From Thauera terpenica 58Eu (lineage in GTDB: Bacteria; Pseudomonadota; Gammaproteobacteria; Burkholderiales; Rhodocyclaceae): a stretch of DNA of 64,000 bases. The stretch spans positions 62,001 through 126,000 of the forward strand of contig NZ_ATJV01000092.1 of assembly GCF_000443165.1 (NCBI RefSeq), in the 5' to 3' direction. The first letter of the stretch is position 1. Every line of letters starts with the position of its first letter. The notes below the pieces were generated by a model, which was given only the letters and a program-made list of their open reading frames with translations, was not told the origin of the DNA and searched no databases. Shown in pieces: positions 14,899 through 25,832 of this stretch. Position numbers and translations under genes: made by a program.

Positions 14899-16518
14899 TC
14901 AGGGCTGTGCGAAGGCCTCGACCAGAAGCGGCGTCAGCGCCCGCATCGGCCCCAGAGCGGGGCCAGCGGGCAGCAATCCGGCCTTGAATCCGCGCGCCCT
15001 GAGCCGTTCCAGCACCGTTTCGTTGCGCGTGATGACATGCACCGGCACCTCCCAATTTGCACCCGGGCCGCTCACCGTGCCGATAGGCTGGTGATCGCCG
15101 ATGACGATCACCACCGCGTCGCGGGGCGCATGCTCCGCCAACCAGCCGGATAGCCAGTCGAACTGATAGCGCAGGGTGGCGAGATAGGCCGGGATGGGCT
15201 CATCCCAGCTCACCGGCGCGGCGCGCGCGCTCACCGATGCGGCGTCCGCATAGGCGTCTGCGCCGCGCACGGCGGCCCAGTCCGGCACATAGGGCGCGAG
15301 CGGGCGAAAAGGGGCGTGCGTGCTCATGGTCGGGAACACCACCAGCCGCGGCTGTCGGGTAGCGCCATCCGTGCCATCGGCGCCATCCAGTTCCTGGTGC
15401 TGGAGCTGCGCCATCGCAGCCTGGTCCGGGATGCGCCAGTAGCCGAAGGCGGGGCCGCGATAGCCGATAGCGTCGGCGTCGGCGATGCGTTCAAAGCCAT
15501 AGAAACGCCCCTCCGGCCAGGCGCGCTGGATGCCGGGCAGCCAGCCGACGGTACGATAGCCCTTGGCGGCAAAATGCCGGACCAGGGTGGGGCGCTTGGA
15601 CTTCAGCAGCAGCCGATAGGCGTTGGGGTCGTGCATGTCGAGGCCGGAGAGCAGCTCCGAGTGCGCCAGCCAGGAGCCTCCACCAAAGGTGGGCGAGCCT
15701 AGCCGAGCCGACACCACCTGACGTCCGCTGGCAGTGATGCTCGCATCGAAGCGGGCGCGCGATTGTTGCAGCGTGGCGGCGAACTCCGCGTTGTCGAGGG
15801 TGATCGCACCGTAGGCTTCGGCAAACACGATGATGACGTCGGCGCCGCCCAGTGCATCCAGGTTGGCGTCGAAGCGCGGGCTCGTGCCGAGCAGGGCTTC
15901 GTCGTCAGCGTGCCACAGCGCGCGCTCCAGCATGTCCGCCTGGGTGACGAGGAGCGCGCTGACCGAGGGTGCGAACGCAGCCTGCAGGGGCGGCGCAAAA
16001 CGCGGGGCCAGCGTCCCCAGCGCGAGCGTGAGCACGGCCATGCCGAGCACGCCCGCCCGCACGCCGTGATCCTGCAGGCCGGCGCCGAGCGCCACCACAC
16101 AGCGCCGGATCACTGCCTGCAGTGCGATCAGACCAAGCACGACCCCCAGCAGCGCGGCGGTGAGGCCCAGCAGGCTGCCGATCGAAGCATCGGCCGTGCC
16201 CATCTTCAGGACTTCCCACACGTGCTGCCCGTCCCAGTAGAAATCCAGCGTACGCCCCAGGATGGCAGGGGCGGTGATGTTGGCGTAATGCAATACGACG
16301 CAGGCGGTGAGGATGAGCGATGTGCCCACCACGACGGCGCGACGCAGCGCGCCGCGCAGGCTGAACAAGGACAGCGCAAGTGCGATTGCGGCGAGTTCGA
16401 TCGATATTCGCGCCGCGGGCCACGGCCACAAGCTCGGCCAGGCGTTGCCGAAGCTGAGCAATGTGTTCAGCACCAGCAGTGCGAGCGCGGCTTTGAGGAC
16501 GGCGGGAAGGGACTTCAT
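14899..16518 (-). CDS. Membrane sulfatase-fold (alkaline phosphatase superfamily) protein
   Basis: 539 residues. About five transmembrane helices fill residues 1-185, and a periplasmic sulfatase-fold domain follows. Metal and nucleophile signals are visible: VIIVFAEAYGAITLDN, the nucleophile region SPTFGGGSWLAHSE, MSTHAPF and the VIVIGDHQPI motif. This architecture resembles lipoteichoic-acid synthase and phosphoethanolamine transferases, which move phospholipid head groups onto glycans or lipids outside the membrane. It sits at the edge of the GTP-cyclohydrolase/glycosyltransferase cluster, so it may decorate that product. The substrate is not known. Confidence 0.8.
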   Translation of the reverse strand: MKSLPAVLKAALALLVLNTLLSFGNAWPSLWPWPAARISIELAAIALALSLFSLRGALRRAVVVGTSLILTACVVLHYANITAPAILGRTLDFYWDGQHVWEVLKMGTADASIGSLLGLTAALLGVVLGLIALQAVIRRCVVALGAGLQDHGVRAGVLGMAVLTLALGTLAPRFAPPLQAAFAPSVSALLVTQADMLERALWHADDEALLGTSPRFDANLDALGGADVIIVFAEAYGAITLDNAEFAATLQQSRARFDASITASGRQVVSARLGSPTFGGGSWLAHSELLSGLDMHDPNAYRLLLKSKRPTLVRHFAAKGYRTVGWLPGIQRAWPEGRFYGFERIADADAIGYRGPAFGYWRIPDQAAMAQLQHQELDGADGTDGATRQPRLVVFPTMSTHAPFRPLAPYVPDWAAVRGADAYADAASVSARAAPVSWDEPIPAYLATLRYQFDWLSGWLAEHAPRDAVVIVIGDHQPIGTVSGPGANWEVPVHVITRNETVLERLRARGFKAGLLPAGPALGPMRALTPLLVEAFAQP

Positions 16519-16751
16519 GAAGCTCGCCTTGTGCAGCGGCGGCGGAGGGCCTGATCCTTGTTTTTCAAGACGGTGCGCTGCAGCTGCCCGCGTGCAGGCG
16601 CAGCGGCGTTCGGCTTCAATGCGATGAGCTTCAATCCTGTCGCGTGCTTCGGCCCGGTATGCTGCGCAGGGCTGTGGAATGGACTGAGGGCTGAATGGGC
16701 CTGCGCCTGCCGATGCCCAGCCAGACGATTACCCGACATGAGAGAGTTTCG

Positions 16752-17579
16752 ATGATGAGCCCACAACAAGGAGCAGCGCGCGTGAGCCCCTGGTGGCAGG
16801 ACAGGACGCCGCAGGAAGTCGCCCGCATTGCGGCCGCGGGCGGGGTCGCGGTGCTGCCGCTGGCTGCGATCGAGCAGCACGGCGAGCATCTGCCGCTGTC
16901 GACCGATCTTGATATCGCGCTCGGACTGCTCGCCGCCGCCTTGCCGCAGCTGCGCCCGGAACTGCCCATCTGCGTGCTGCCCGCGCTGGCCGTGGGCCTC
17001 AGCCTGGAACACAGCGCCTTTGCCGGCACCCTGAGTCTGAGCCCGGAGACCGCGTTGGCGGTGGTGTCGGAGCTGGGTGAGCGCGTGGCAGCGGCAGGTT
17101 TCAAGCGCCTGGTGCTGTTCAACAGCCACGGCGGCAACAAGGCGGTGGTCGATCTGGCGGCGCTCAAGCTGCGCGCAGCGCATCGCATGCTCGTCGTGCG
17201 TGCCAACTATTTTCGTTTCACGCCGCCGGTCGATGTGCTGCCGGTAGATGAGCTGCGTCATGGCCTGCACGGTGGCGCGCTGGAAACCGCCATGATGTTG
17301 CATCTGGCGCCGACGAAGGTGCGCGTCGAGCGGATCGCGGATTTCGACTCGCTTGGTCGGCGCATGGCTGCGGCAGGAACACTGCTGGGGGCCGAAGGCG
17401 AAGCCGGTTTTGCGTGGATGGCTCAAGATCTGAATCCTTGCGGCGCCACCGGCAATGCGTGCCTGGCGAGCGCAGGGATGGGTGCGCGCCTCGTTACGCA
17501 CTACGCCCAGCAACTGGCGCGCCTGCTGCAGGAGACATACGATTTCGACCTGTCCTGTCTGCGCGATGAGATCGCTTGA
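16752..17579 (+). CDS. Creatininase-family amidohydrolase
   Basis: 275 residues. All expected metal ligands are visible: IEQHGEHLPLSTD (Glu, His and Asp), LFNSHGGNK and the HGGALETAM motif. Members include creatininase, the mycofactocin peptidase MftE and ArfB, which deformylates the formamidopyrimidine made from GTP in archaeal flavin synthesis. It lies beside a GTP cyclohydrolase II-like gene with which it is convergent, so an ArfB-like amide hydrolysis is a reasonable guess, but it is a guess. The start MMSPQQG is preferred because the upstream in-frame region is not conserved-looking. It is divergent from the sulfatase-domain gene. Confidence 0.85.
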   Translation: MMSPQQGAARVSPWWQDRTPQEVARIAAAGGVAVLPLAAIEQHGEHLPLSTDLDIALGLLAAALPQLRPELPICVLPALAVGLSLEHSAFAGTLSLSPETALAVVSELGERVAAAGFKRLVLFNSHGGNKAVVDLAALKLRAAHRMLVVRANYFRFTPPVDVLPVDELRHGLHGGALETAMMLHLAPTKVRVERIADFDSLGRRMAAAGTLLGAEGEAGFAWMAQDLNPCGATGNACLASAGMGARLVTHYAQQLARLLQETYDFDLSCLRDEIA

Positions 17580-17582
17580 GCG

Positions 17583-17625
17583 ATGCCGAGCACTGCCGCG
17601 TTCGTGCTGTGGCAGTGCTCGGCAT
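17583..17625. terminator. Bidirectional hairpin between creatininase and ribA-like genes
   Basis: A perfect 15-bp inverted repeat, ATGCCGAGCACTGCC (17583-17597) and GGCAGTGCTCGGCAT (17611-17625), with a 13-base loop, starting four bases after the creatininase stop. No T-run. Its position between convergent genes suggests it ends transcription in both directions. Confidence 0.65.
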
Positions 17626-17630
17626 GGTGA

Positions 17631-18788
17631 TCAGCTGCGCGCTGCGGTCGCGGGCGCGGGCAGGCATTCCGGCCCATCCGAGGCGGGCTCGCCCTGTTCA
17701 TTGAGGAGTTCGTGCAGCCAGTGACCATGGCGGTTGGCCTTGGTGGTCAGATAGCGCTGGTTCTGCTCGGTGACCTCGCCATAGATCGCCTGGCGTGCGG
17801 TGACGTTGATGCCCGCGCGCTGCAGGGCTGCGACCTTGCTCGGGTTGTTGGTCAACAGCAGGATGCGTGACACGCCAAGTTGTTCCAGCATCTCGTGCGC
17901 AACGCGAAAGTCGCGCTCGTCCTGGGAGAATCCGATGATCTGGTCGGCGTCGATGGTGTCCAGGCCCTCGTCCTGCAAGCCGTAGGCGCGCAGCTTGTTG
18001 GCCAGCCCGATGCCGCGGCCTTCCTGCGACAGGTAAAGCAGAACACCGCCGCCTTGGGCGTGAATCGCTGCCACGCCGCGGCGCAGCTGCTCGCCACAGT
18101 CACAGCGCAGGCTGCCGAACAGATCGCCGGTGAGGCAGGACGAATGCAGGCGCACCGGCACATCCGCTGGCCATGCGCCCGGATCGCCGATGACGATGGC
18201 GACATGTTCGCGAATGCCGTCGGGTTCGCGGAACAGCACGAAACGACTCTCCTCGGCATCGATCAGCGGAACGCGCGCCTCGCTCACGCGACTCAAGCCG
18301 CCCGGACCGCTGGCGCAAAGCTGCAAGGCTGTGTCGGCCTCGACCGCCAGCAGCTCGCCACTGGCAAGCGCGGCCGCGACCGCTGCCGACTGCGCGGGCG
18401 TGACCACGCAGCTCACCGCTGCCGGCAGCAGCTGGGCCCGTGACAGCAGTCGGATGGTGGCCTGGCCGGCCTTGTCGGCAGCGGCCTGGGGTGTGCCTGG
18501 CGGCAGTTGCACGCCGCGCTGGGCGGCGAACTCGCGCAGCCGGACGCTGTCTGGTAGCGGTGCCAGGCAAAGTGTGACCGGCGTCTTGACCTCGCTGAAG
18601 CCGAGCGCCGCCATGCGGTGGCTGGACAGCACCAGGCAGGCGGGCGAGCCGCTCAGCGCCTGCAGCGCTGCCAGTGCGCTGTCGTTCAGCCCTTCAACGG
18701 CCTGGACGAGCGTGTCGCTGCCGTTGTTGCGCACGAGCACGGGAAGGCCGCGTCGCAGATCGAAAATTGCGCGTTCGGCTTGGCGCAT
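17631..18788 (-). CDS. GTP cyclohydrolase II-like protein with N-terminal RibB-like remnant
   Basis: 385 residues from the ATG at 18788, which has a GGAGA ribosome-binding site. Residues 175-360 are a GTP cyclohydrolase II domain: zinc Cys 218, 229 and 231 in CLTGDLFGSLRCDC, the QEGRGIGLANKLRAYGLQ block, the catalytic Arg 292 in DERDF, and LLTNNPSK. The usual RQEGR is SQEGR here (Ser 254). Residues 1-170 resemble a degenerate 3,4-dihydroxybutanone phosphate synthase fold that lacks the acidic catalytic loop. Canonical members open the GTP imidazole ring to give a diaminopyrimidinone. Context with a creatininase, a RibD-type reductase and a PTPS-like protein suggests a specialised pathway rather than riboflavin supply. 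Confidence 0.82.
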   Translation of the reverse strand: MRQAERAIFDLRRGLPVLVRNNGSDTLVQAVEGLNDSALAALQALSGSPACLVLSSHRMAALGFSEVKTPVTLCLAPLPDSVRLREFAAQRGVQLPPGTPQAAADKAGQATIRLLSRAQLLPAAVSCVVTPAQSAAVAAALASGELLAVEADTALQLCASGPGGLSRVSEARVPLIDAEESRFVLFREPDGIREHVAIVIGDPGAWPADVPVRLHSSCLTGDLFGSLRCDCGEQLRRGVAAIHAQGGGVLLYLSQEGRGIGLANKLRAYGLQDEGLDTIDADQIIGFSQDERDFRVAHEMLEQLGVSRILLLTNNPSKVAALQRAGINVTARQAIYGEVTEQNQRYLTTKANRHGHWLHELLNEQGEPASDGPECLPAPATAARS

Positions 18789-18883
18789 CGGTTGTTCTCC
18801 GGTCGGGTGTTCAGGTTGTTGTAAGCGCGCGCTCCCCGCCGTGTGGCGAGGGGGACGCAAATCGAATCAATGAGGGGTGCGCA

Positions 18884-19831
18884 ATGTCTGGCGGAAATTT
18901 TTCTGCAAATTGGGGCTGGGACTGCATTTTGCAAGCCCACGCCCACGATTGGGCCCTTTATCCGCTCACAAGGTTCCACGCCGGAGATCTTTTGCTCGAG
19001 GTCGAGCTTGGCGGAGCCTGGCGTTGTGAACATGCGCTGAGCGCCGAAACGATTGATCTGCTGAACCTTTTCCTGCCGCTCGTGGCGCGCATGGAGACCC
19101 TGGCGATCGCTCAGCTGGGGCAAAGTCTGGACGGCCGCATCGCTACCGAGAGCGGCGCTTCGCACTATATCAACGGGCTGCAGGCCCGTACCCACCTGCA
19201 CCGCCTGCGTGCGCTGGTCGATGCGGTGGTGGTGGGGGTGGGGACGGTCAATGACGATGACCCCTTGCTGACCGTGCGTCATGTCAAGGGCAGGAACCCG
19301 GTTCGGGTGGTGCTCGATCCGCGCGCGCGCATGGGCGGGGATCGTCGGCTGGCGTTCGACGGTGCGGCGCTGACCATACAGCTGGTGGGGCCAGGCTGCG
19401 CTACGAAGGCACCGCCAGGCGTGCGCCGGATCTCTTTGCCGACGACGGCAGAAGGTGGATTCGATGTGCTGGCGGTGCTGGACTGGCTGCATGCCCAGGG
19501 CTTGCGTCGGGTGTTGATCGAAGGCGGCGGGGTGACGATTTCGCGCTTCATGCAGGCCGGAGCGCTGGATCGCATGCATTTTCTCATTGCGCCGCTGCTC
19601 ATCGGATCCGGTCGTGCGGGCTTGCAACTGCCGCCGGTGCTGAGTGTGCATGAGGCGCGGCGCCCGCGCTGTCGGGTCTTTGCTTGTGGCGAGGATACGA
19701 TCTTCGATCTCGATCTGCGCCTTGCTGCGCATTCCGCGCACGATGCGCGCGCTGACGCCGACGCTCATGTCCCGCGCCGCATCAGCACCCAGGCGCCGGG
19801 CAGCGTCGATGTCAGCACCACCATGCCGTAG
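18884..19831 (+). CDS. RibD C-terminal-domain reductase
   Basis: 315 residues. The first 72 or so match nothing I know. The rest is the RibD reductase / dihydrofolate-reductase-like fold: QSLDGRIATESGASHYING, LHRLRALVDAVVVGVGTV, DDDPLLTVR, PVRVVLDPRARM and the RRVLIEGGG motif. The deaminase domain of bifunctional RibD is absent. Family members reduce the ribosyl side chain of pyrimidine intermediates with NADPH. The start at 18884 follows an AGGGG ribosome-binding site. It is divergent from the cyclohydrolase gene (95 bases between them), and its 3' end overlaps the convergent flippase-like gene by 67 bases. Confidence 0.85.
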   Translation: MSGGNFSANWGWDCILQAHAHDWALYPLTRFHAGDLLLEVELGGAWRCEHALSAETIDLLNLFLPLVARMETLAIAQLGQSLDGRIATESGASHYINGLQARTHLHRLRALVDAVVVGVGTVNDDDPLLTVRHVKGRNPVRVVLDPRARMGGDRRLAFDGAALTIQLVGPGCATKAPPGVRRISLPTTAEGGFDVLAVLDWLHAQGLRRVLIEGGGVTISRFMQAGALDRMHFLIAPLLIGSGRAGLQLPPVLSVHEARRPRCRVFACGEDTIFDLDLRLAAHSAHDARADADAHVPRRISTQAPGSVDVSTTMP

Positions 19832-20799
19832 GCAATCGAGATCGCCACGCCCTGGCTCACGTCCAGCCCCGCGGCCGCCCACAGCACTGCCGCCGCACCT
19901 TCACGCAGGCCCCAGCCTGCCATCGACAGCGGGATGGCCATCGCCAGCAATACCCAGGGGATGAGCGCAAGCAGTAGCGGGGCCGGGGTGTCGATGCCGA
20001 GCATGCGTGTGCAGCAGAAATAGACCGCGATGTAGCTCGTTGCCAGCGCAAGCGAGCTCAGCAGCTGGCGCCACAGCAGCGCAGGTGCGAGCAGGGCAAG
20101 CCGCACTGCGCGGGCGAAGGTGCGCAGCAGCCGGCTGCCGCGCAGGACCAGCACCAGCAGCACGCCGACGCTCAGGCCCAGCGCAAGTTGGGCGGGGCCA
20201 AGGCCCGGCTCCTGTGTACGCCCGGGCAGCGCGCCGAGCACGTGGGCGATGGTGGGCGAGAGCAGCAGGGTCGCCAGTGCGCACAACAGCATCGCCACCT
20301 GGCCCGAGCTGCGCTCGAGCAGTACCGCCAGCCAGGCGCTGGAGCGCGTGCCTGCGGCCGATTCTGCGCTGAAACCCGAACCTGAGCCGGAATCTGCACC
20401 GGAAGCCGGGCGCGCGCGCGTCCCGAGCTTTGCGCCGAGCGCGCGATTTGCGGCGAGCGGGCGACGGGCGTGGCGCCGGGCGCGGTTGGCGTCGCCGATC
20501 ACCCCGCCGGGCAGCACCTGGTTGAGAAAGCTGCCCAGGTAGTACTCGGCGAAGGCATGGCGAAAGGGCAGCGGCGCATCCAGGCTGGCTGCAGTCAGTT
20601 GCCAGCGCCAGGCCGACAGCGCCATCTGCGGCACGCTCAGCGCCAGCGCCAGTGCCAGCCATGGTGGCGAGGGGGCGGCGAAGGCGGCGCGCAAGGCCGC
20701 GATATCGAGCTGCGCAAGCAGCGCTGCCAGCAGGCCCAGGCTGAACAGGGCGGGCAGCAGGCGCGCAAGCAGCCGGCGGCGCGGGCTGCGGGCCTTCAT
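19765..20799 (-). CDS. Flippase-like membrane protein (lysylphosphatidylglycerol synthase TM / UPF0104 family)
   Basis: 344 residues, about eight transmembrane helices. The family signature YYLGSFLNQVLPGGVIGDA is at roughly residues 86-104, preceded by the conserved Arg-Trp in SAWRWQL. A Gly/Ser-rich low-complexity linker (GADSGSGSGF) interrupts the cytoplasmic loop. Relatives move lipids or lipid-linked sugars across the inner membrane. It is the last gene of a minus-strand operon with the methyltransferase (4-bp overlap), glycosyltransferase, PTPS-like and MDR genes, consistent with moving their product across the membrane. Its stop codon lies inside the convergent reductase gene. Confidence 0.8.
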   Translation of the reverse strand: MKARSPRRRLLARLLPALFSLGLLAALLAQLDIAALRAAFAAPSPPWLALALALSVPQMALSAWRWQLTAASLDAPLPFRHAFAEYYLGSFLNQVLPGGVIGDANRARRHARRPLAANRALGAKLGTRARPASGADSGSGSGFSAESAAGTRSSAWLAVLLERSSGQVAMLLCALATLLLSPTIAHVLGALPGRTQEPGLGPAQLALGLSVGVLLVLVLRGSRLLRTFARAVRLALLAPALLWRQLLSSLALATSYIAVYFCCTRMLGIDTPAPLLLALIPWVLLAMAIPLSMAGWGLREGAAAVLWAAAGLDVSQGVAISIAYGMVVLTSTLPGAWVLMRRGT

Positions 20800-21821
20800 C
20801 GACGGTGAGGGCTGTTTGCCGAGGGCGGGGAGGGATCGTGCGTGGGCGTGAGCGCGGCAGGGGGTGGCAGCGCGAGCAGATCAAGATGGCCCAGGGTGAT
20901 GTTGAGCCGTCCTTGTGTTCGCGCCGCTTGCGCCAGTGCGTTCTGGCGGCGCTGATGCCAGCTATCGATGCGGGTGCGGGCCTGCGGGCGCTGCTCGAGC
21001 GCGGCGTCGCGCCAGCCGCTGATCAGCGCGCGGGCGAGTGCGGCCTGGCTGGGAACGGCGGCCGACAGCTGCCACGGGCTGGGTGCCAGCTCCACCACAA
21101 AGCCGCGCGCCTGCAGCAACTCGGCCAGCCGCGCGGCGGCATCCGGGCCGAGTGCGCGTGCCCCCCCTTTGGCACGGTGCTGGTGTTCGTTGAAGATCGC
21201 GCGCACGAAATCGTCGTCCGGGTCTGTATCGGCGCCAGGGGTGGCGCCTGCGCCGCCCACCCCTCCGCTGTCGATGTGCCAGCGTCCGTCCACGCTCAAG
21301 GTGATCAGCACCGCGCAGCCGATGCCCAGGCAGATGTCAGCGAAGCCCTCCAGCCAGCTGGCGTCGACCAGGTCGAGCATGGCCGAAGCCGTGATCAGGT
21401 CGCTGTTGGCGAGCGCTGCGGCGTGTACCGTGCGCAGATCGACAAGCTCGGTCTCGGCGCTGATCGGCTGCCCATCGCGATCACATAGCGCAAGACAGTG
21501 CTGGCGCGCGTGCTCCAGCAAGCGTGGGTCGTGATCAAACAGGTGCCAGCGTTGTGGGCCGGGCAGACGGGGGGCGAGATAGCGTGGGTTGGCGCCGCTG
21601 CCGCTGCCCAGGTCGCTCAGCCGCAGTGCTCGCGTGCGGCCTGGAGCGCGTTGCGTCAGCCAGGCCGCGAGGCGGGCGGTGAGCGCCGCGCTGCGTGCCC
21701 GGGTGTCGGCTGCGCTGCGCAAGCTCAGCCAGTCGGCATCGAACACGGTGTCGGGGTGAGGCTGGGTTGGCACTGGGCCGGGGGCATCAGGACTGGCGGA
21801 GTCAGGGCGATGGGCGGGCAT
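20796..21821 (-). CDS. SAM-dependent methyltransferase
   Basis: 341 residues. Class I methyltransferase motif I is LSDLGSGSGANPRYLAP at about residues 68-84, followed by the acidic LFDHDPRLLEHAR and LITASAMLDLVD. Both ends are Pro/Asp-rich and probably disordered, and there is a Gly/Ala/Asp-rich insert around residue 190. It overlaps the flippase-like gene by ATGA and starts six bases after the glycosyltransferase stop, so all are co-transcribed. The acceptor is unknown; a sugar, a pterin-like ring or a lipid head group would all fit the cluster. Confidence 0.82.
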   Translation of the reverse strand: MPAHRPDSASPDAPGPVPTQPHPDTVFDADWLSLRSAADTRARSAALTARLAAWLTQRAPGRTRALRLSDLGSGSGANPRYLAPRLPGPQRWHLFDHDPRLLEHARQHCLALCDRDGQPISAETELVDLRTVHAAALANSDLITASAMLDLVDASWLEGFADICLGIGCAVLITLSVDGRWHIDSGGVGGAGATPGADTDPDDDFVRAIFNEHQHRAKGGARALGPDAAARLAELLQARGFVVELAPSPWQLSAAVPSQAALARALISGWRDAALEQRPQARTRIDSWHQRRQNALAQAARTQGRLNITLGHLDLLALPPPAALTPTHDPSPPSANSPHRR

Positions 21822-21827
21822 GGGGAC

Positions 21828-22904
21828 TCAGGGGCCGGAGGGTGTGGACAGGCGCTCGAGGGCGACGGCAAACTGGCGGCCGGCTTGCACCCAGTCGGTG
21901 AGCTGCGGGCGCGCACGGCGGGCGCCGTCGCGCAAGGCGAAGCGTGCCTCGGGGTGGCTGAGCAGATGGCGCAGGGCGGCCGCGAGGGCTGGTACATCGC
22001 CCGCGGGGACGGCGATGCCGGCTTCAGGCGGCAGGGTGTGGCGCAGCGCGCCGCCGGTGGTGCACAGCACGGGCAGGCCAGCGGCCACGGCCTCGGTGAT
22101 GACCATGCCATAGCCTTCGTAGTGCGAGGGCAGCACGAACAGATCGGCGGCGGTATAAGCGGCATGCAGCGCCGCATCGTCGAGCTCGCCCCACAAGTGG
22201 ATGCGCTCGCCCAGACCGTGGTGCGCGATGGCGCCGCGCACACGCTCGGCATGTTCGACATCGCGCGTGAGGCTGCCGATACAGTCGCACTGCCAGTCGA
22301 GCTCGGCAACCAGGGACAGCGCTTCGACCAGCAGGTCGTGGCCCTTGCGCGGGGTCAGGCTGGCGACGCACAGCAGGCGTGCTGGGCTGTGATCGGCCGC
22401 CGCGAGCGGACGCGCCTGCACGCCCGGCTCGACCACCTCGATGCGGACGTCGGCAAGCCCCATCCGGGCGACGCGGCGCGCGCTGAAGTGGCTGGTGGTG
22501 ATCACGCCGCGCATCGCGCTCAGGGCTTCACGCTCGAGCGCTTCGACGCGCAGCTGCTGCGCTGGGGCGAGTCCGCCTTCGTCGGCCAGGGGGTGATGCA
22601 CGAGCGCGAGAAGGCGCAGTCGCCTGGCGTGCGGCACGACCACTTCGGGCAGACCACCCAGGGCCAGGCCGTCGATGAGGACGAGGCTGTCCTCCGCCAG
22701 CGTCGACAGAGCGGCATCCATCGCCTGCCGTGCCTGCGCATCGACGGCGGGGAAGTGGCCAGCCAGCCCCTTGACCGTGAGCTGCCAGCCCAGGCGGCGC
22801 AATTGGGTGACGATGTGGGCGTCGTAGAGATAACCGCCAGTGCGCTGGCCGGGGTCGCCGGCGACGATGAGGTGCAGTTCGGGATGCGCAATCAGAGCGC
22901 TCAC
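21828..22904 (-). CDS. GT4-family glycosyltransferase
   Basis: 358 residues with the GT-B double Rossmann layout. N-terminal glycine loop [13 protein letters not shown], central [16 protein letters not shown] that starts the nucleotide-sugar-binding half, and the EX7E-type motif [20 protein letters not shown]. These are cytoplasmic retaining enzymes that use NDP-sugars. The start overlaps the stop of the PTPS-like gene (ATGA, 22901-22904). Pairing of a PTPS-like and a glycosyltransferase gene recalls pteridine glycosides known from cyanobacteria, but transfer to a lipid is equally possible. Confidence 0.88.
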
Positions 22905-23299
22905 AGCGCGCCTTCGTAGCTCGCCCAGGCGATGTGGGATTCGTGCAGGGTCACCTGCAGGTACTCGAGACCGCGTCCGCCTTCGCCCAGGCGGCCATCC
23001 TTGATCGCCGCCGCCATGTGCTCGAAGATCACCCGTGCCATGAACTCGGTGGTGGTGTTCTTGCCGGCGAAAGCCGGTTCGTCGTCGAGGTTGCGGAAGT
23101 TGAGCCCGGCCAGCACGCTGCGCAAGGCCTCGCTTGCGAGGCCGATGTCGACCACCAGAGCGTCTGCGTCCAGTTCGCTGCGCTTGAAGCAGGCGTCGAT
23201 GAGGTAGGTCGCACCGTGGAGGCGTTGGGCCGGGCCGAAGACTTCGCCCTTGAAGCTGTGGGCGATCATGATGTGGTCGCGAACGGTGAGTGCGTACAT
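22901..23299 (-). CDS. 6-pyruvoyl-tetrahydropterin synthase/QueD-like protein with degenerate active site
   Basis: 132 residues, the normal size for the fold. His 14 and His 28 of the zinc site remain, but the canonical HGH triplet is HGA (Ala 30). The catalytic Cys four residues before the HGH is Ala 24, and the Asp-His pair of LDHHxLN is replaced by LNFRNL (Asn 67, Phe 68). The pterin-anchoring Glu (LHESH, Glu 120) and the TTTE pocket are kept. It may therefore bind a pterin or pyrimidine without the classical chemistry, or catalyse something else. It sits between MDR dehydrogenase and glycosyltransferase genes in one operon. Confidence 0.82.
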
Positions 23300-23352
23300 G
23301 CGGGGTTCTCGCAGGGCTAGTGAATCAGGGGTGAGGGGTCAGGCGTGCTAAG

Positions 23353-24354
23353 TCAGGCGTAACGGATGCGGTGACAGAGCGCGCCCGCGGGTGCGCTGGA
23401 CAGGCGCTGCAAGGTGTCGGGCAGGCTGGCGAAGTCGCTCTCGCCGCTGATCAAGACATCAGGCAGGCTATCGACGAGCAAGGACAGCGCAAGTTCCATA
23501 CGCCGGCGGTAGGTCCAGCGTGGCGCCTGGCGCGGCGGCAAGCGCCCGACCTGGCTCGAGCGCAGCGTCAGACGGCGGGCATGAAAGGCCTCGCCCAGCG
23601 CCAGCGCCACGCTGCGCTGGCCGTACCAGCTCATTTCCAGCACCGTGGCTTCGTCGCCGGCGAGCTCGAGCGCGCGCGCCAGCCCGGCCGGCGCGCCGCT
23701 GGCGTGGATGACGAGGTCGCAATTGCCACGCGCGCCGTCGGGCAGGGCGAAGCCTGCGCCCAAGGCCGTGGCCAGCGCCGCGCGTGAGGGGTCGAGGTCG
23801 ATCAGCTCCACCTCGGTACCGGGAATGCGCGCGCACAGCCACGCCACCAGCGCACCGAGCACACCGCTACCGACCACCGCGATGCGATCGCCGAGTGTGG
23901 GTGAGGCGTCCCAGACCGCGTTGATGGCGGTCTCGAGGTTGGCGGCGAGCACCGCGCGTGCGCTCGGTACGGCGTCGGGCAGTGCCACCACCGCGGTGGC
24001 GGGCACGACATAGGCTTGCTGATGCGGGTACAGGCAGAACACACGCCGCCCGACGAGGGCTTGGGCCTGCGCGCCGCAGCCGGCCTCGACCACGCCGACG
24101 TTGATGTAGCCGTACTTCACCGGCGCCGGAAAGTCGCCCTGCTGAAAGGGCGCGCGCATGCGTTGATATTCACTGGGCGGCACCTCGCCGCGGAACACCA
24201 GGCTCTCGGTGCCGCGGCTGATGGCGCTGTACAGGCTGCGCACCAGGACATCTCCGTCGCGCAGCGGCGGCAGCGTCTCACGGCGCAACTCGCCGCGGCC
24301 GGGAGCGACGGTCCAGAATGCGAGGGGGTCGGAGAGGAGCTTGGAAGTGCGCAT
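23353..24354 (-). CDS. Medium-chain dehydrogenase/reductase family protein
   Basis: 333 residues from MRTSKLL at 24354; the upstream in-frame extension is antisense to the CDP-alcohol transferase gene and is discarded. GroES-like N-terminal half (LYSAISRGTESLVFRG), then a Rossmann fold with IAVVGSGVLGALVAWL and VELIDLDPSR. The Cys/His-Glu catalytic zinc ligands and the four-Cys structural zinc loop are missing, so it is a zinc-independent member, closest in style to BchC-like dehydrogenases. It is the first gene of the five-gene minus-strand operon and probably oxidises or reduces the cluster's intermediate with NAD(P). Confidence 0.8.
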   Translation of the reverse strand: MRTSKLLSDPLAFWTVAPGRGELRRETLPPLRDGDVLVRSLYSAISRGTESLVFRGEVPPSEYQRMRAPFQQGDFPAPVKYGYINVGVVEAGCGAQAQALVGRRVFCLYPHQQAYVVPATAVVALPDAVPSARAVLAANLETAINAVWDASPTLGDRIAVVGSGVLGALVAWLCARIPGTEVELIDLDPSRAALATALGAGFALPDGARGNCDLVIHASGAPAGLARALELAGDEATVLEMSWYGQRSVALALGEAFHARRLTLRSSQVGRLPPRQAPRWTYRRRMELALSLLVDSLPDVLISGESDFASLPDTLQRLSSAPAGALCHRIRYA

Positions 24355-24411
24355 GCAGGAGATCCGGGAAAATTGTCGAAACCTGCATCGTGGCAGACGG
24401 TCCGAGCGAAG

Positions 24412-25197
24412 ATGAACAAGCATAACGTGTCTCCGCCCGGCACTGTCCCCGCTCGCCCCGTCGCCGCGCGCGCCAGCGCTATTGCGCCCGTTCGGTTCGA
24501 ACTGGCGGTCGGCATGGTGGTGCTGGCCTTGGTGCTGGCCGCTCTGGTGGTGGTGATCGGATTGCCCGGCCTGAGTGTGATGTGGGCAGTGCTCGTCTAT
24601 GCTGGGATGGTCGTGCTGCTCCTCAGGCACTGGCCGGACCAGAGTCAATCCTTGGGCGTGGCCAATCGCATCACCCTGGGGCGCGCGCTCGTGGTGGCGG
24701 TGCTGGCCGGGGCCAGCGCCGGGTTCCCGGCGCTGGCGCCCCACACCGGGGTGTTGGCGCTGATGGCGCTGGTGGCGCTGGTGCTGGACGGCGTCGATGG
24801 CTGGGCGGCGCGGCGCTGGCGGTGCGTGAGCGAGTTCGGCGCGCGCTTCGACATGGAGCTCGACGCCTTTCTGATCCTGGTCTTGTGTGCCTTGCTGTGG
24901 GTGCTGGACAGGGCGGGGGTGTGGGTGTTTGCGATCGGCGCCATGCGTTACCTGTTCGTGCTGGCCATGCGGCCGTGGCCGTGGCTGGCCGCGCCCCTGC
25001 CGCCCAGCCAGCGGCGCAAGGCGGTGTGCGTGTGGCAGGTCGGAAGCTTGCTGGTGTGCCTGCTGCCCGGGGTGCGCGGCGGCTTTGCGCTGTTCTTGTT
25101 GTGGGCCGCACTGGCGCTGCTGGTGTGGTCGTTCGCGCTTGATGTGCGCTGGCTGCATCGTCAGCGCGCAGTGAGCGCCGTCGGATCATTTCCTTGA
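24412..25197 (+). CDS. CDP-alcohol phosphatidyltransferase family membrane protein
   Basis: 261 residues, with about six transmembrane helices. The complete CDP-alcohol phosphotransferase signature DGxxARx8GxxxDxxxD is present at about residues 126-148 (starting DGWAARRW and ending FDMELD). Members join an alcohol to CDP-diacylglycerol or CDP-activated head groups at the inner membrane. The start MNKHNV at 24412 is preferred because the upstream frame is antisense to the MDR gene. It is divergent from the MDR gene with 57 bases between, so shared control with the PTPS-glycosyltransferase operon is likely. A lipid-linked product is suggested. Confidence 0.87.
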   Translation: MNKHNVSPPGTVPARPVAARASAIAPVRFELAVGMVVLALVLAALVVVIGLPGLSVMWAVLVYAGMVVLLLRHWPDQSQSLGVANRITLGRALVVAVLAGASAGFPALAPHTGVLALMALVALVLDGVDGWAARRWRCVSEFGARFDMELDAFLILVLCALLWVLDRAGVWVFAIGAMRYLFVLAMRPWPWLAAPLPPSQRRKAVCVWQVGSLLVCLLPGVRGGFALFLLWAALALLVWSFALDVRWLHRQRAVSAVGSFP

Positions 25198-25211: not shown

Positions 25212-25832
25212 ATGCATGCAGCACAGTGTTTTTCCCGTCCGCGCCGTGGCGCGCTGGTCGGCATTGCAAGCGCGCTGGTCATGTTGGCCGGTGCCGGCAG
25301 CGCTCACGCCGAGCCGCACACCTACCAGATTGATGCGGAGCACTTCGGCATCTCCTTCAGCATCCGCCATCTGGGATTCGCGGATACCCTGGGGCTCTTC
25401 CTCAAGGCGCGCGGCAGCTTTGTGTACGACGAAAAGACGCGCGTGCTCAGTGCAGGGCGGGTGGTGGTTGACGCGAAGAGCGTGTTCACCAACCACGACG
25501 CGCGCGACAAGCATGTGCGCGACGACGACTTTCTTGCGGCAAAAGCCCACCCGGAAATCGTCTTTGTGGCCGACGCCTTCGAGCCTACTTCGGACCAGGG
25601 CGGGCGCCTCGCGGGCAAGCTGACACTACGCGGACAGACGCATCCGGTGGTGCTTGATGTCGTCCTCAACAAGGCCGCTGACTACCCCATGGGTCACGGC
25701 AAGCACACCCTTGGGGTGTCGGCGAGCACGACGATCAAGCGCAGCCAGTGGGGCATGAGCTACGCCGTCGAGCCGCCCATGGTGGGCGATGAGGTCAAGC
25801 TGGTGTTCGAATTCGAGGCCAATCGGGAATAA
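25212..25832 (+). CDS. YceI-family periplasmic lipid-binding protein
   Basis: 206 residues with a clear signal peptide ending SAHAEPH. The mature part starts YQIDAEHFGISFSIRHLG and has the family motifs SFVYDEKT, TNHDARDKHVRDDDFLAAKAHPEI and LTLRGQTHPV. YceI proteins are small lipocalin-like barrels that bind polyisoprenoid or amphiphilic ligands in the periplasm. It begins 14 bases after the CDP-alcohol transferase gene on the same strand, so it may be co-expressed with it and bind a lipid product. Tandem 13-bp repeats run over its stop codon. Confidence 0.9.
   Translation: MHAAQCFSRPRRGALVGIASALVMLAGAGSAHAEPHTYQIDAEHFGISFSIRHLGFADTLGLFLKARGSFVYDEKTRVLSAGRVVVDAKSVFTNHDARDKHVRDDDFLAAKAHPEIVFVADAFEPTSDQGGRLAGKLTLRGQTHPVVLDVVLNKAADYPMGHGKHTLGVSASTTIKRSQWGMSYAVEPPMVGDEVKLVFEFEANRE

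Follow-up and report, generated by a model that had tools for sequence, protein, structure and literature searches.

The locus considered here lies at positions 14899-25197 of a 64,000-nucleotide stretch of Thauera terpenica 58Eu (contig NZ_ATJV01000092.1, positions 62,001 to 126,000; hereafter the window) and combines a PTPS-like protein with genes for GTP-derived pyrimidine or pterin chemistry, sugar and methyl transfer, and lipid handling. Several described systems share parts of it. At E 0.001 the PDB contains a single relative of the PTPS-like protein: 3d7j, titled "Uncharacterized protein SCO6650", from Streptomyces coelicolor, which aligns with it over 132/132 residues (E 5.1e-56). A 2008 structure paper reportedly found SCO6650 to be without zinc, without the catalytic triad and without PTPS activity. 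We read the SCO6650-SCO6655 locus through that of S. tendae (L062), where the order PTPS, glycosyltransferase family 4 (GT4), methyltransferase, flippase, creatininase and GTP cyclohydrolase II (GCHII) matches SCO6650 to SCO6655 by count and by the label of SCO6655, which is GTP cyclohydrolase II in the available text of PMC2853524. The Streptomyces loci differ from the window in two respects: their GCHII carries Met at position 105, and RibD_C is missing from 30 of 31 of them, whereas the window has Tyr105 and a RibD_C protein.

Two genes of the S. coelicolor locus appear in published expression work, of which portions were available. SCO6652, by gene order the methyltransferase, is among the strongly changed genes of unknown function; in second mycelium its log2 value against the first mycelium is 0.8 at the substrate stage (24 h), then 4.3 for aerial growth (48 h) and 4.1 at the spore stage (72 h) (PMC3610822). 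A second paper lists SCO6655 (-0.61) and another GCHII, SCO2687 (-0.52), among genes that anticorrelate with predicted flux, most of which rise in stationary phase (PMC2853524). Both patterns fit a late product, but that of SCO6655 is not peculiar to the GCHII of the cluster.

The PTPS-IV subfamily of COG0720 (PMC5445326, PMC5041015) shares with this locus the FGPAQ signature, its published mark, and an association with PF00925 and RibD_C that is in print (PMC5445326); this part of the neighborhood is already known. From unpublished work, PTPS-IV is also stated to act in archaeal F420 synthesis (PMC5041015). The available portions of the two papers mention no GT4, methyltransferase, MDR, flippase, CDP-alcohol transferase, creatininase or MdoGH neighbors. 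The type is functionally unsettled in the literature, and the cluster PTPS bears its signature. The BrbF and ArfA-ArfB-ArfC riboflavin routes, as far as the available text of PMC9478397 describes them, share a creatininase-family formamidase role, a stand-alone RibD_C and a possible split GTP cyclohydrolase step. They differ from the cluster, in which no deaminase was found, the ArfB model is not reached, and glycosyl, methyl and lipid genes are added. The pepteridine cluster of Photorhabdus likewise has a PTPS homologue in a biosynthetic cluster making a pterin product, but uses GTP cyclohydrolase I and a fusion of E2 type resembling nonribosomal peptide synthetases (NRPS), and the word "glycosyl" is absent from the available text (PMC5384830). 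Finally, PimA, PimB and MshA are the nearest solved GT4 structures, and their pathways differ in that no inositol gene is among the families scored in the cluster. The combination of a GT4 enzyme and a CDP-alcohol transferase is shared with these pathways. Within the available text of open-licence PubMed Central papers the full cluster was not found described (PMC13118837 holds nothing on it). New here are the pairing of Met105 with creatininase, the proximity of MdoG and MdoH, and the LtaS-like model of a sulfatase-fold protein.

A conserved core around the PTPS-IV protein

The core of the cluster is an MDR-superfamily dehydrogenase, the PTPS-like protein, a GT4 glycosyltransferase and a methyltransferase, usually with a stand-alone RibD_C reductase. 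We scored two sets of loci: (i) named loci, the best 80 of at least 509 PTPS relatives among public genome contigs, selected by PTPS similarity; and (ii) an unselected set, obtained by searching 398 Pseudomonadota genomes with a PTPS profile and scoring all 26 matching loci other than the window's own. The profile matched 27/398 genomes (~7%, own genome counted), and two of the 26 loci (L199, L214) are limited by a contig end. In the unselected set we found MDR in 26, GT4 in 25, the methyltransferase in 24 and RibD_C in 22, with all four and PTPS together in 19. Less frequent were the CDP-alcohol transferase (12), flippase (11), GCHII (11), creatininase (6), the sulfatase-fold gene (5) and YceI (4). 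The published PTPS-IV neighborhood of PF00925 and RibD_C thus recurs in 11/26 and 22/26 loci, respectively.

Scoring of the named set is partly circular, as the family hidden Markov models (HMMs) were built from the same loci; 61 of the 80 are Streptomyces or halomonads judged from record titles, and several contigs are short. These best 80 of at least 509 contain MDR (80), GT4 (80), methyltransferase (79), CDP-alcohol transferase (75), flippase (71, or 72 under another cut-off), GCHII (65), creatininase (62), RibD_C (44), sulfatase-fold (15) and YceI (9) genes, in hosts including Streptomyces, Micromonospora, Amycolatopsis, halomonads, Methyloversatilis, Nisaea and Marinobacter. Over the 106 loci scored besides the window, PTPS-IV stands with MDR in 106, GT4 in 105 and the methyltransferase in 103. 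The same HMMs gave two MDR matches of 34 bits on the remainder of the window and none other above 25 bits. The first-pass annotation, made from the sequence alone, had supposed that these genes are kept together and proposed a neighborhood search; they are co-conserved far beyond their own genome (MDR 26/26, GT4 25/26).

Block order and strands are largely alike across Pseudomonadota and Actinomycetota. The cluster is patchily distributed yet well conserved, and common to many soil and salt-loving bacteria; in the wider order PTPS is rare (4/120 genomes, own included). In a tree of the four core proteins the actinomycetes form one clade (support 0.63) and the direction of transfer is not clear; methyltransferase distances are unreliable, with several halomonad matches being fragments. 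A short contig titled Natrialbaceae archaeon (L043, PWMF01000113.1) carries a halomonad-like copy that falls among Halomonas loci in the tree, and its archaeal label is probably a binning error. In another record (L086, AP019514.1) the cluster genes are broken into many pieces, which points to frameshifts or sequencing errors. Genes flanking the Streptomyces loci (FAD oxidoreductase, saccharopine dehydrogenase, beta-lactamase-like and others) were judged to be outside the cluster.

The PTPS-IV gene of the window (22901..23299, minus strand; PF01242, 78.9 bits; Pfam assignments here are scores above each model's own cut-off unless stated) encodes a core protein that differs from catalytic PTPS and QueD enzymes at the zinc site. 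The zinc HGH motif of those enzymes (CxxxHGH, CxxxxxHGH or ExxHGH) is not present in it. Among 107 PTPS sequences, HxH occurs in none, HGA or HGE stands at that place in all, FGPAQ is present in 106 and NTTTE or NTSTE in 98. Residues E120-S121 are invariant in an 18-row alignment; residues of this type presumably anchor the pterin ring.

The other core genes lie on the same strand. The GT4 gene (21828..22904; PF00534 Glycos_transf_1, 104.5 bits) encodes E263 and E271 eight residues apart, of the E-x7-E type, and its nearest PDB structures are 6kih and those of MshA, PimB and PimA types. The methyltransferase gene (20796..21821) belongs to a family without its own Pfam model and was assigned to the class I S-adenosylmethionine (SAM) methyltransferases by predicted fold, Methyltransf_25 giving a sub-threshold 22.2 bits. 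Its DLG.G.G motif is invariant (alignment A1), and the predicted structure (pLDDT 88.7) matches many SAM methyltransferases in the PDB; as to substrate, the fold comparison with the PDB returned only generic matches. The MDR gene (23353..24354) has no Pfam match at E 0.001, and its NCBIfam matches, to BchC and alcohol dehydrogenases, stay below cut-off (best BchC, 55.6 bits). The protein is well conserved, with an SRGTE motif (alignment A3) that we take to occupy the place of the zinc cysteine of zinc-type MDR enzymes.

The claim of a tight operon with 4-bp overlaps, from MDR to flippase, is borne out at two of four junctions: flippase/methyltransferase and GT4/PTPS each overlap by 4 bp, whereas methyltransferase and GT4 are separated by 6 bp and PTPS and MDR by 53 bp. 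The RibD_C gene (18884..19831, plus strand; PF01872, 125 bits) and the flippase gene (19765..20799, minus strand; PF03706, 116.4 bits) are convergent and overlap by 67 bp. Ten open genes were located within 14899-25197 of the window, which is part of a 4.1-Mb genome (estimated 100% complete). They match the set of pyrimidine/pterin and lipid-glycoside proteins listed in the first-pass annotation and are all in place, which confirms that observation; a YceI gene would add an eleventh. An Rfam scan of the whole window at gathering scores gave no match, so no riboswitch was found.

A proposed branch from the riboflavin route

From gene content, order, co-conservation and motif states we infer a set of reactions, substrates and product to which we give about an even chance: the cluster would branch off the riboflavin route and make a 2-amino-4-oxo-pyrimidine or pterin that bears a ribityl (ribitol-type) side chain, a sugar and a methyl group. 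GCHII would open GTP. In Streptomyces and Amycolatopsis, the Met105-type enzyme should stop at the formylamino compound, from which the creatininase-family enzyme would remove formate as BrbF does. The still undeaminated intermediate would then have its ribosyl group reduced to ribityl by RibD_C, the sequence of steps used by archaea and fungi. The zinc-free PTPS-IV protein may bind the 2-amino-4-oxo ring by way of the conserved glutamate and act together with the MDR enzyme to remodel the ring or side chain; glycosylation would fall to GT4 and methylation to the methyltransferase. Most of the beta- and gammaproteobacterial and actinomycete loci scored also have a lipid module of CDP-alcohol transferase and flippase, at times with YceI or an LtaS-like transferase, which could attach the product or its phosphate to a phospholipid and move it to the outer face. 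The gene set fits a GTP-derived pyrimidine or pterin in the form of a methylated glycoside, much as the first-pass annotation had suggested; the part of that suggestion drawn from the window GCHII does less well, as this enzyme probably serves riboflavin (see below).

The association of RibD_C with PTPS within the genus supports this scheme. We compared 29 genomes of the genus, several of them fragmentary, of which 15 have PTPS. Cluster-type RibD_C was found in 15/15 PTPS-positive and 1/14 PTPS-negative genomes (Fisher p 2e-7), and creatininase in 14/15 and 4/14 (Fisher p 5e-4). In the RibD_C protein only PF01872 was found, the deaminase domain of bifunctional RibD being absent by Pfam.

Cluster GCHII comes in two types. 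Alignment with 2bz0 places E. coli Tyr105 at the Y of the RAY motif, which rules out the Leu of the GLDT motif as the catalytic position. The window enzyme (17631..18788, minus strand; PF00925 GTP_cyclohydro2, 185 bits) keeps both the zinc cysteine triad and Tyr105. In the other type Met replaces the catalytic Tyr105, and all 30 such copies are from Streptomyces or Amycolatopsis. The window GCHII also has an extra N-terminal domain of ~165 residues (residues 1-165) that is common to NCBIfam PRK08815-type proteins; with the 30 Met-type copies, and with the four Tyr-type ones of actinomycetes, BLAST matches of the window protein start only between residues 159 and 194. A degenerate RibB was considered for this domain and rejected, three proteins giving no Pfam match at E up to 10.

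Creatininase is present in 30/30 loci with the Met type. Such a pairing would be expected of a Met enzyme that goes no further than the formylamino compound and relies on a formamidase for the next step. Work from the SCO6650 structure group is said to have found that SCO6655, with Met in place of Tyr, yields the formylamino compound. The window creatininase gene (16755..17579, plus strand; PF02633, 204.7 bits), an accessory gene of the cluster, encodes a candidate formamidase for this compound (AFRPP), with a BrbF-like role; its best NCBIfam model is MftE (110.7 bits, below cut-off). In Sinorhizobium, BrbF, a creatininase-family protein, removes formate at this step, and the partner making the formylamino compound is described in the available text as still to be found (PMC9478397). 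If the scheme is correct, the Met105 GCHII would be a candidate for this AFRPP-forming enzyme type, and the cluster would provide a candidate split GTP cyclohydrolase from bacteria. One Streptomyces locus of 31, that of Streptomyces sp. NBS 14/10 (L076), has RibD_C beside a Met-type GCHII and creatininase.

Several observations weigh against the proposed pathway. PTPS-IV has lost catalytic residues, and its binding of a pterin ring is predicted from a few kept ones. The link between Met105 and creatininase is confined to one clade (Streptomyces and Amycolatopsis) and does not represent many independent cases, and RibD_C is missing from the 30 Streptomyces loci noted above. Tyr-type GCHII also travels with creatininase, in 30/35 loci, an association that the scheme does not account for; the five loci without it are three Micromonospora, Planosporangium and one short contig, and among Tyr-type actinomycete GCHII loci it occurs in 0/4. 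ArfB membership of the window creatininase is rejected, the model (NF033501) giving 12.4 bits against a cut-off of 180 bits, with 38.3, 36.5, 26.9 and 19.1 bits on four relatives. Within the window's genus, GCHII occurs irrespective of the cluster (14/15 PTPS-positive and 12/14 PTPS-negative genomes; Fisher p 0.6). Lastly, the lipid module is absent from 12 of 13 divergent loci (L192-L204), the CDP-alcohol transferase and the flippase each occurring in one. Creatininase was not found in these 13 loci, and their seven GCHII copies are all of the Tyr type.

Envelope genes and a possible lipid product

The lipid genes belong to some lineages only. The CDP-alcohol transferase is present in 36/37 actinomycete and 30/30 halomonad loci and the flippase in 35/37 and 29/30, respectively. 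The first-pass annotation had the product attached to or exported through the membrane; this may hold in some lineages and is not universal, as the unselected counts for these two genes (12/26 and 11/26) indicate. The CDP-alcohol phosphatidyltransferase of the window (24412..25197, plus strand; PF01066 CDP-OH_P_transf, 61.4 bits) has an intact DxxDGxxAR...GxxxDxxxD motif, with D126, D129, G130, A133, R134, G143, D147 and D151 invariant in 18 rows (alignment A2). The YceI-like gene (25212..25832, plus strand; PF04264, 133.8 bits) starts 14 bp behind it. In ten other loci of several lineages, YceI is directly downstream of the CDP-alcohol transferase on the same strand, with a match distance of at most 139 bp. 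The YceI gene probably belongs to the cluster, as a partner of the lipid module.

The sulfatase-fold gene (14899..16518, minus strand; PF00884 Sulfatase, 29 bits) is accessory and encodes a membrane protein predicted to be an LtaS/LtaP-like phospho-headgroup transferase. A sequence search against the PDB gave no match. Its structural model (pLDDT 83) has LtaP and LtaS as top PDB matches at a weak TM of 0.33-0.36 (query-normalised), followed by sulfatases and phosphatases. E234, S282, H401, D475 and H476 are invariant in a 12-row alignment of the family. We assume that these E, S, H and DH residues have metal-site roles and that the Ser stands where LtaS has Thr. The gene occurs in 0/31 Streptomyces loci.

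These envelope genes raise the alternative that the cluster modifies an envelope glycolipid or periplasmic glucan, with the PTPS fold binding a sugar or nucleotide, the GTP-pathway genes supplying a cofactor, and no pterin in the product. We consider this possible but rather unlikely. In its favor, MdoH occurs in 12, MdoG in 6 and either in 14 of the 26 unselected loci; the 12 MdoH correspond to a binomial p of 2e-21 under random placement with relatedness ignored. An FkbM methyltransferase is present in 8/26, the GT4 is nearest to the MshA, PimA and PimB types, and the LtaS/LtaP-like model of the sulfatase-fold protein and its occurrence with MdoG in halomonad-type loci also fit. Against it, RibD_C is near-core (22/26) and follows PTPS across the genus, anchor residues of pterin type are retained in PTPS-IV, and MdoG and MdoH are found in 0/37 actinomycete loci. 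Glucan decoration is not the general function, because MdoG was not found in the window genome either (with E. coli as positive control). Eight halomonad-type loci (L029, L034, L045, L056, L070, L074, L208 and L210) have MdoG near the sulfatase-fold gene; MdoH was not found in their cluster stretches, as if the sulfatase-fold gene stood in its place.

The proposed branch from the riboflavin route also has a more specific form, which we put forward tentatively and regard as unlikely: a new envelope lipid, namely a phospholipid with a methylated, glycosylated ribityl-aminopyrimidine or pterin head group. Here the CDP-alcohol transferase would use CDP-diacylglycerol to lipidate the ribityl compound at its 5'-phosphate, and the flippase would turn the lipid over. 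Periplasmic glucans (MdoGH in halomonads) might then receive the phospho-head group from the LtaS-like enzyme, and in Streptomyces a split GTP cyclohydrolase, Met105 GCHII plus creatininase formamidase, would feed the pathway. More generally, the cluster would link envelope glycans and lipids with pyrimidine chemistry that starts from GTP, and it gives SCO6650/PTPS-IV, a structure without a function, a genomic home and a testable pathway. As this PTPS type is also found in readily grown Streptomyces and Halomonas, the product can be sought with deletion strains and mass spectrometry.

Riboflavin, F420 and chance as alternatives

Another reading is that GCHII, creatininase and RibD_C simply serve riboflavin beside an unrelated glycosylation operon, which we consider improbable. 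In its favor, GCHII of this type is found in 26/29 genomes of the genus, with or without the cluster. Cluster-type GCHII is 63-79% identical in 12 PTPS-negative relatives, eight of which are without this creatininase type. The window genome has two PF00925 genes, and the other, in a ribE-ribBA-ribH operon, is without the zinc cysteines. Because this second copy has no zinc cysteines and GCHII is present regardless of the cluster, the window GCHII, as the only copy found intact in the genome, very probably serves riboflavin, presumably as the housekeeping RibA. The GCHII half of the RibBA in that operon (L002, G000:C35:68940-69392) lacks the cysteines, and similarly low-scoring matches recur across the genus.

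The same objection, which the first-pass annotation had itself raised, stands for GCHII in the genus but fails for RibD_C, because a longer RibD-family gene (415-residue frame) lies elsewhere in the window genome and the short RibD_C was not found in 13/14 PTPS-negative relatives. Together with the ribE-ribBA-ribH operon, these findings rule out riboflavin as the whole explanation. The conservation of the neighborhood across phyla also speaks against it, as does a second canonical GCHII in other hosts. Among 15 host genomes, in which GCHII copies were assigned by motif and position, the cluster locus includes a GCHII gene in nine, all of which possess another copy with intact cysteines and Tyr105; no GCHII is present in the cluster stretch of the other six. 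In those nine hosts the cluster GCHII is extra and, on these motifs, looks dedicated. A separate locus (L110, G134:C139) has creatininase and GCHII, a RibD_C stub (residues 6-48) and then GT4 (residues 195-340, at the end of the stretch). Flippase and methyltransferase are missing between stub and GT4, and PTPS was not found in that genome; the locus looks like a decayed cluster.

A coenzyme F420-related pathway is very unlikely. It would accord with the assignment of PTPS-IV to archaeal F420 synthesis, cited above as unpublished work in the available text of PMC5041015, and with two CofH homologues over cut-off in the window genome. CofH is over cut-off in only 5/14 cluster genomes (one of them that of the window), which weakens this reading, and we reject F420 as the pathway; Methyloversatilis, three halomonads, Nisaea, Kiloniellales, Thiohalocapsa, Xenophilus and Marinobacter have none over cut-off. 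The two homologues of the window genome, both over the curated cut-off, lie outside the window (G000:C67:26810-27850 and G000:C48:281483-282520), and one of them shares its 802-residue frame with another match of lower score. Chance neighbors or an annotation artefact, for which nothing speaks beyond the low scores that Pfam gives the methyltransferase and MDR genes, can be dismissed, since largely the same order and strands recur in two phyla and the census refutes it.

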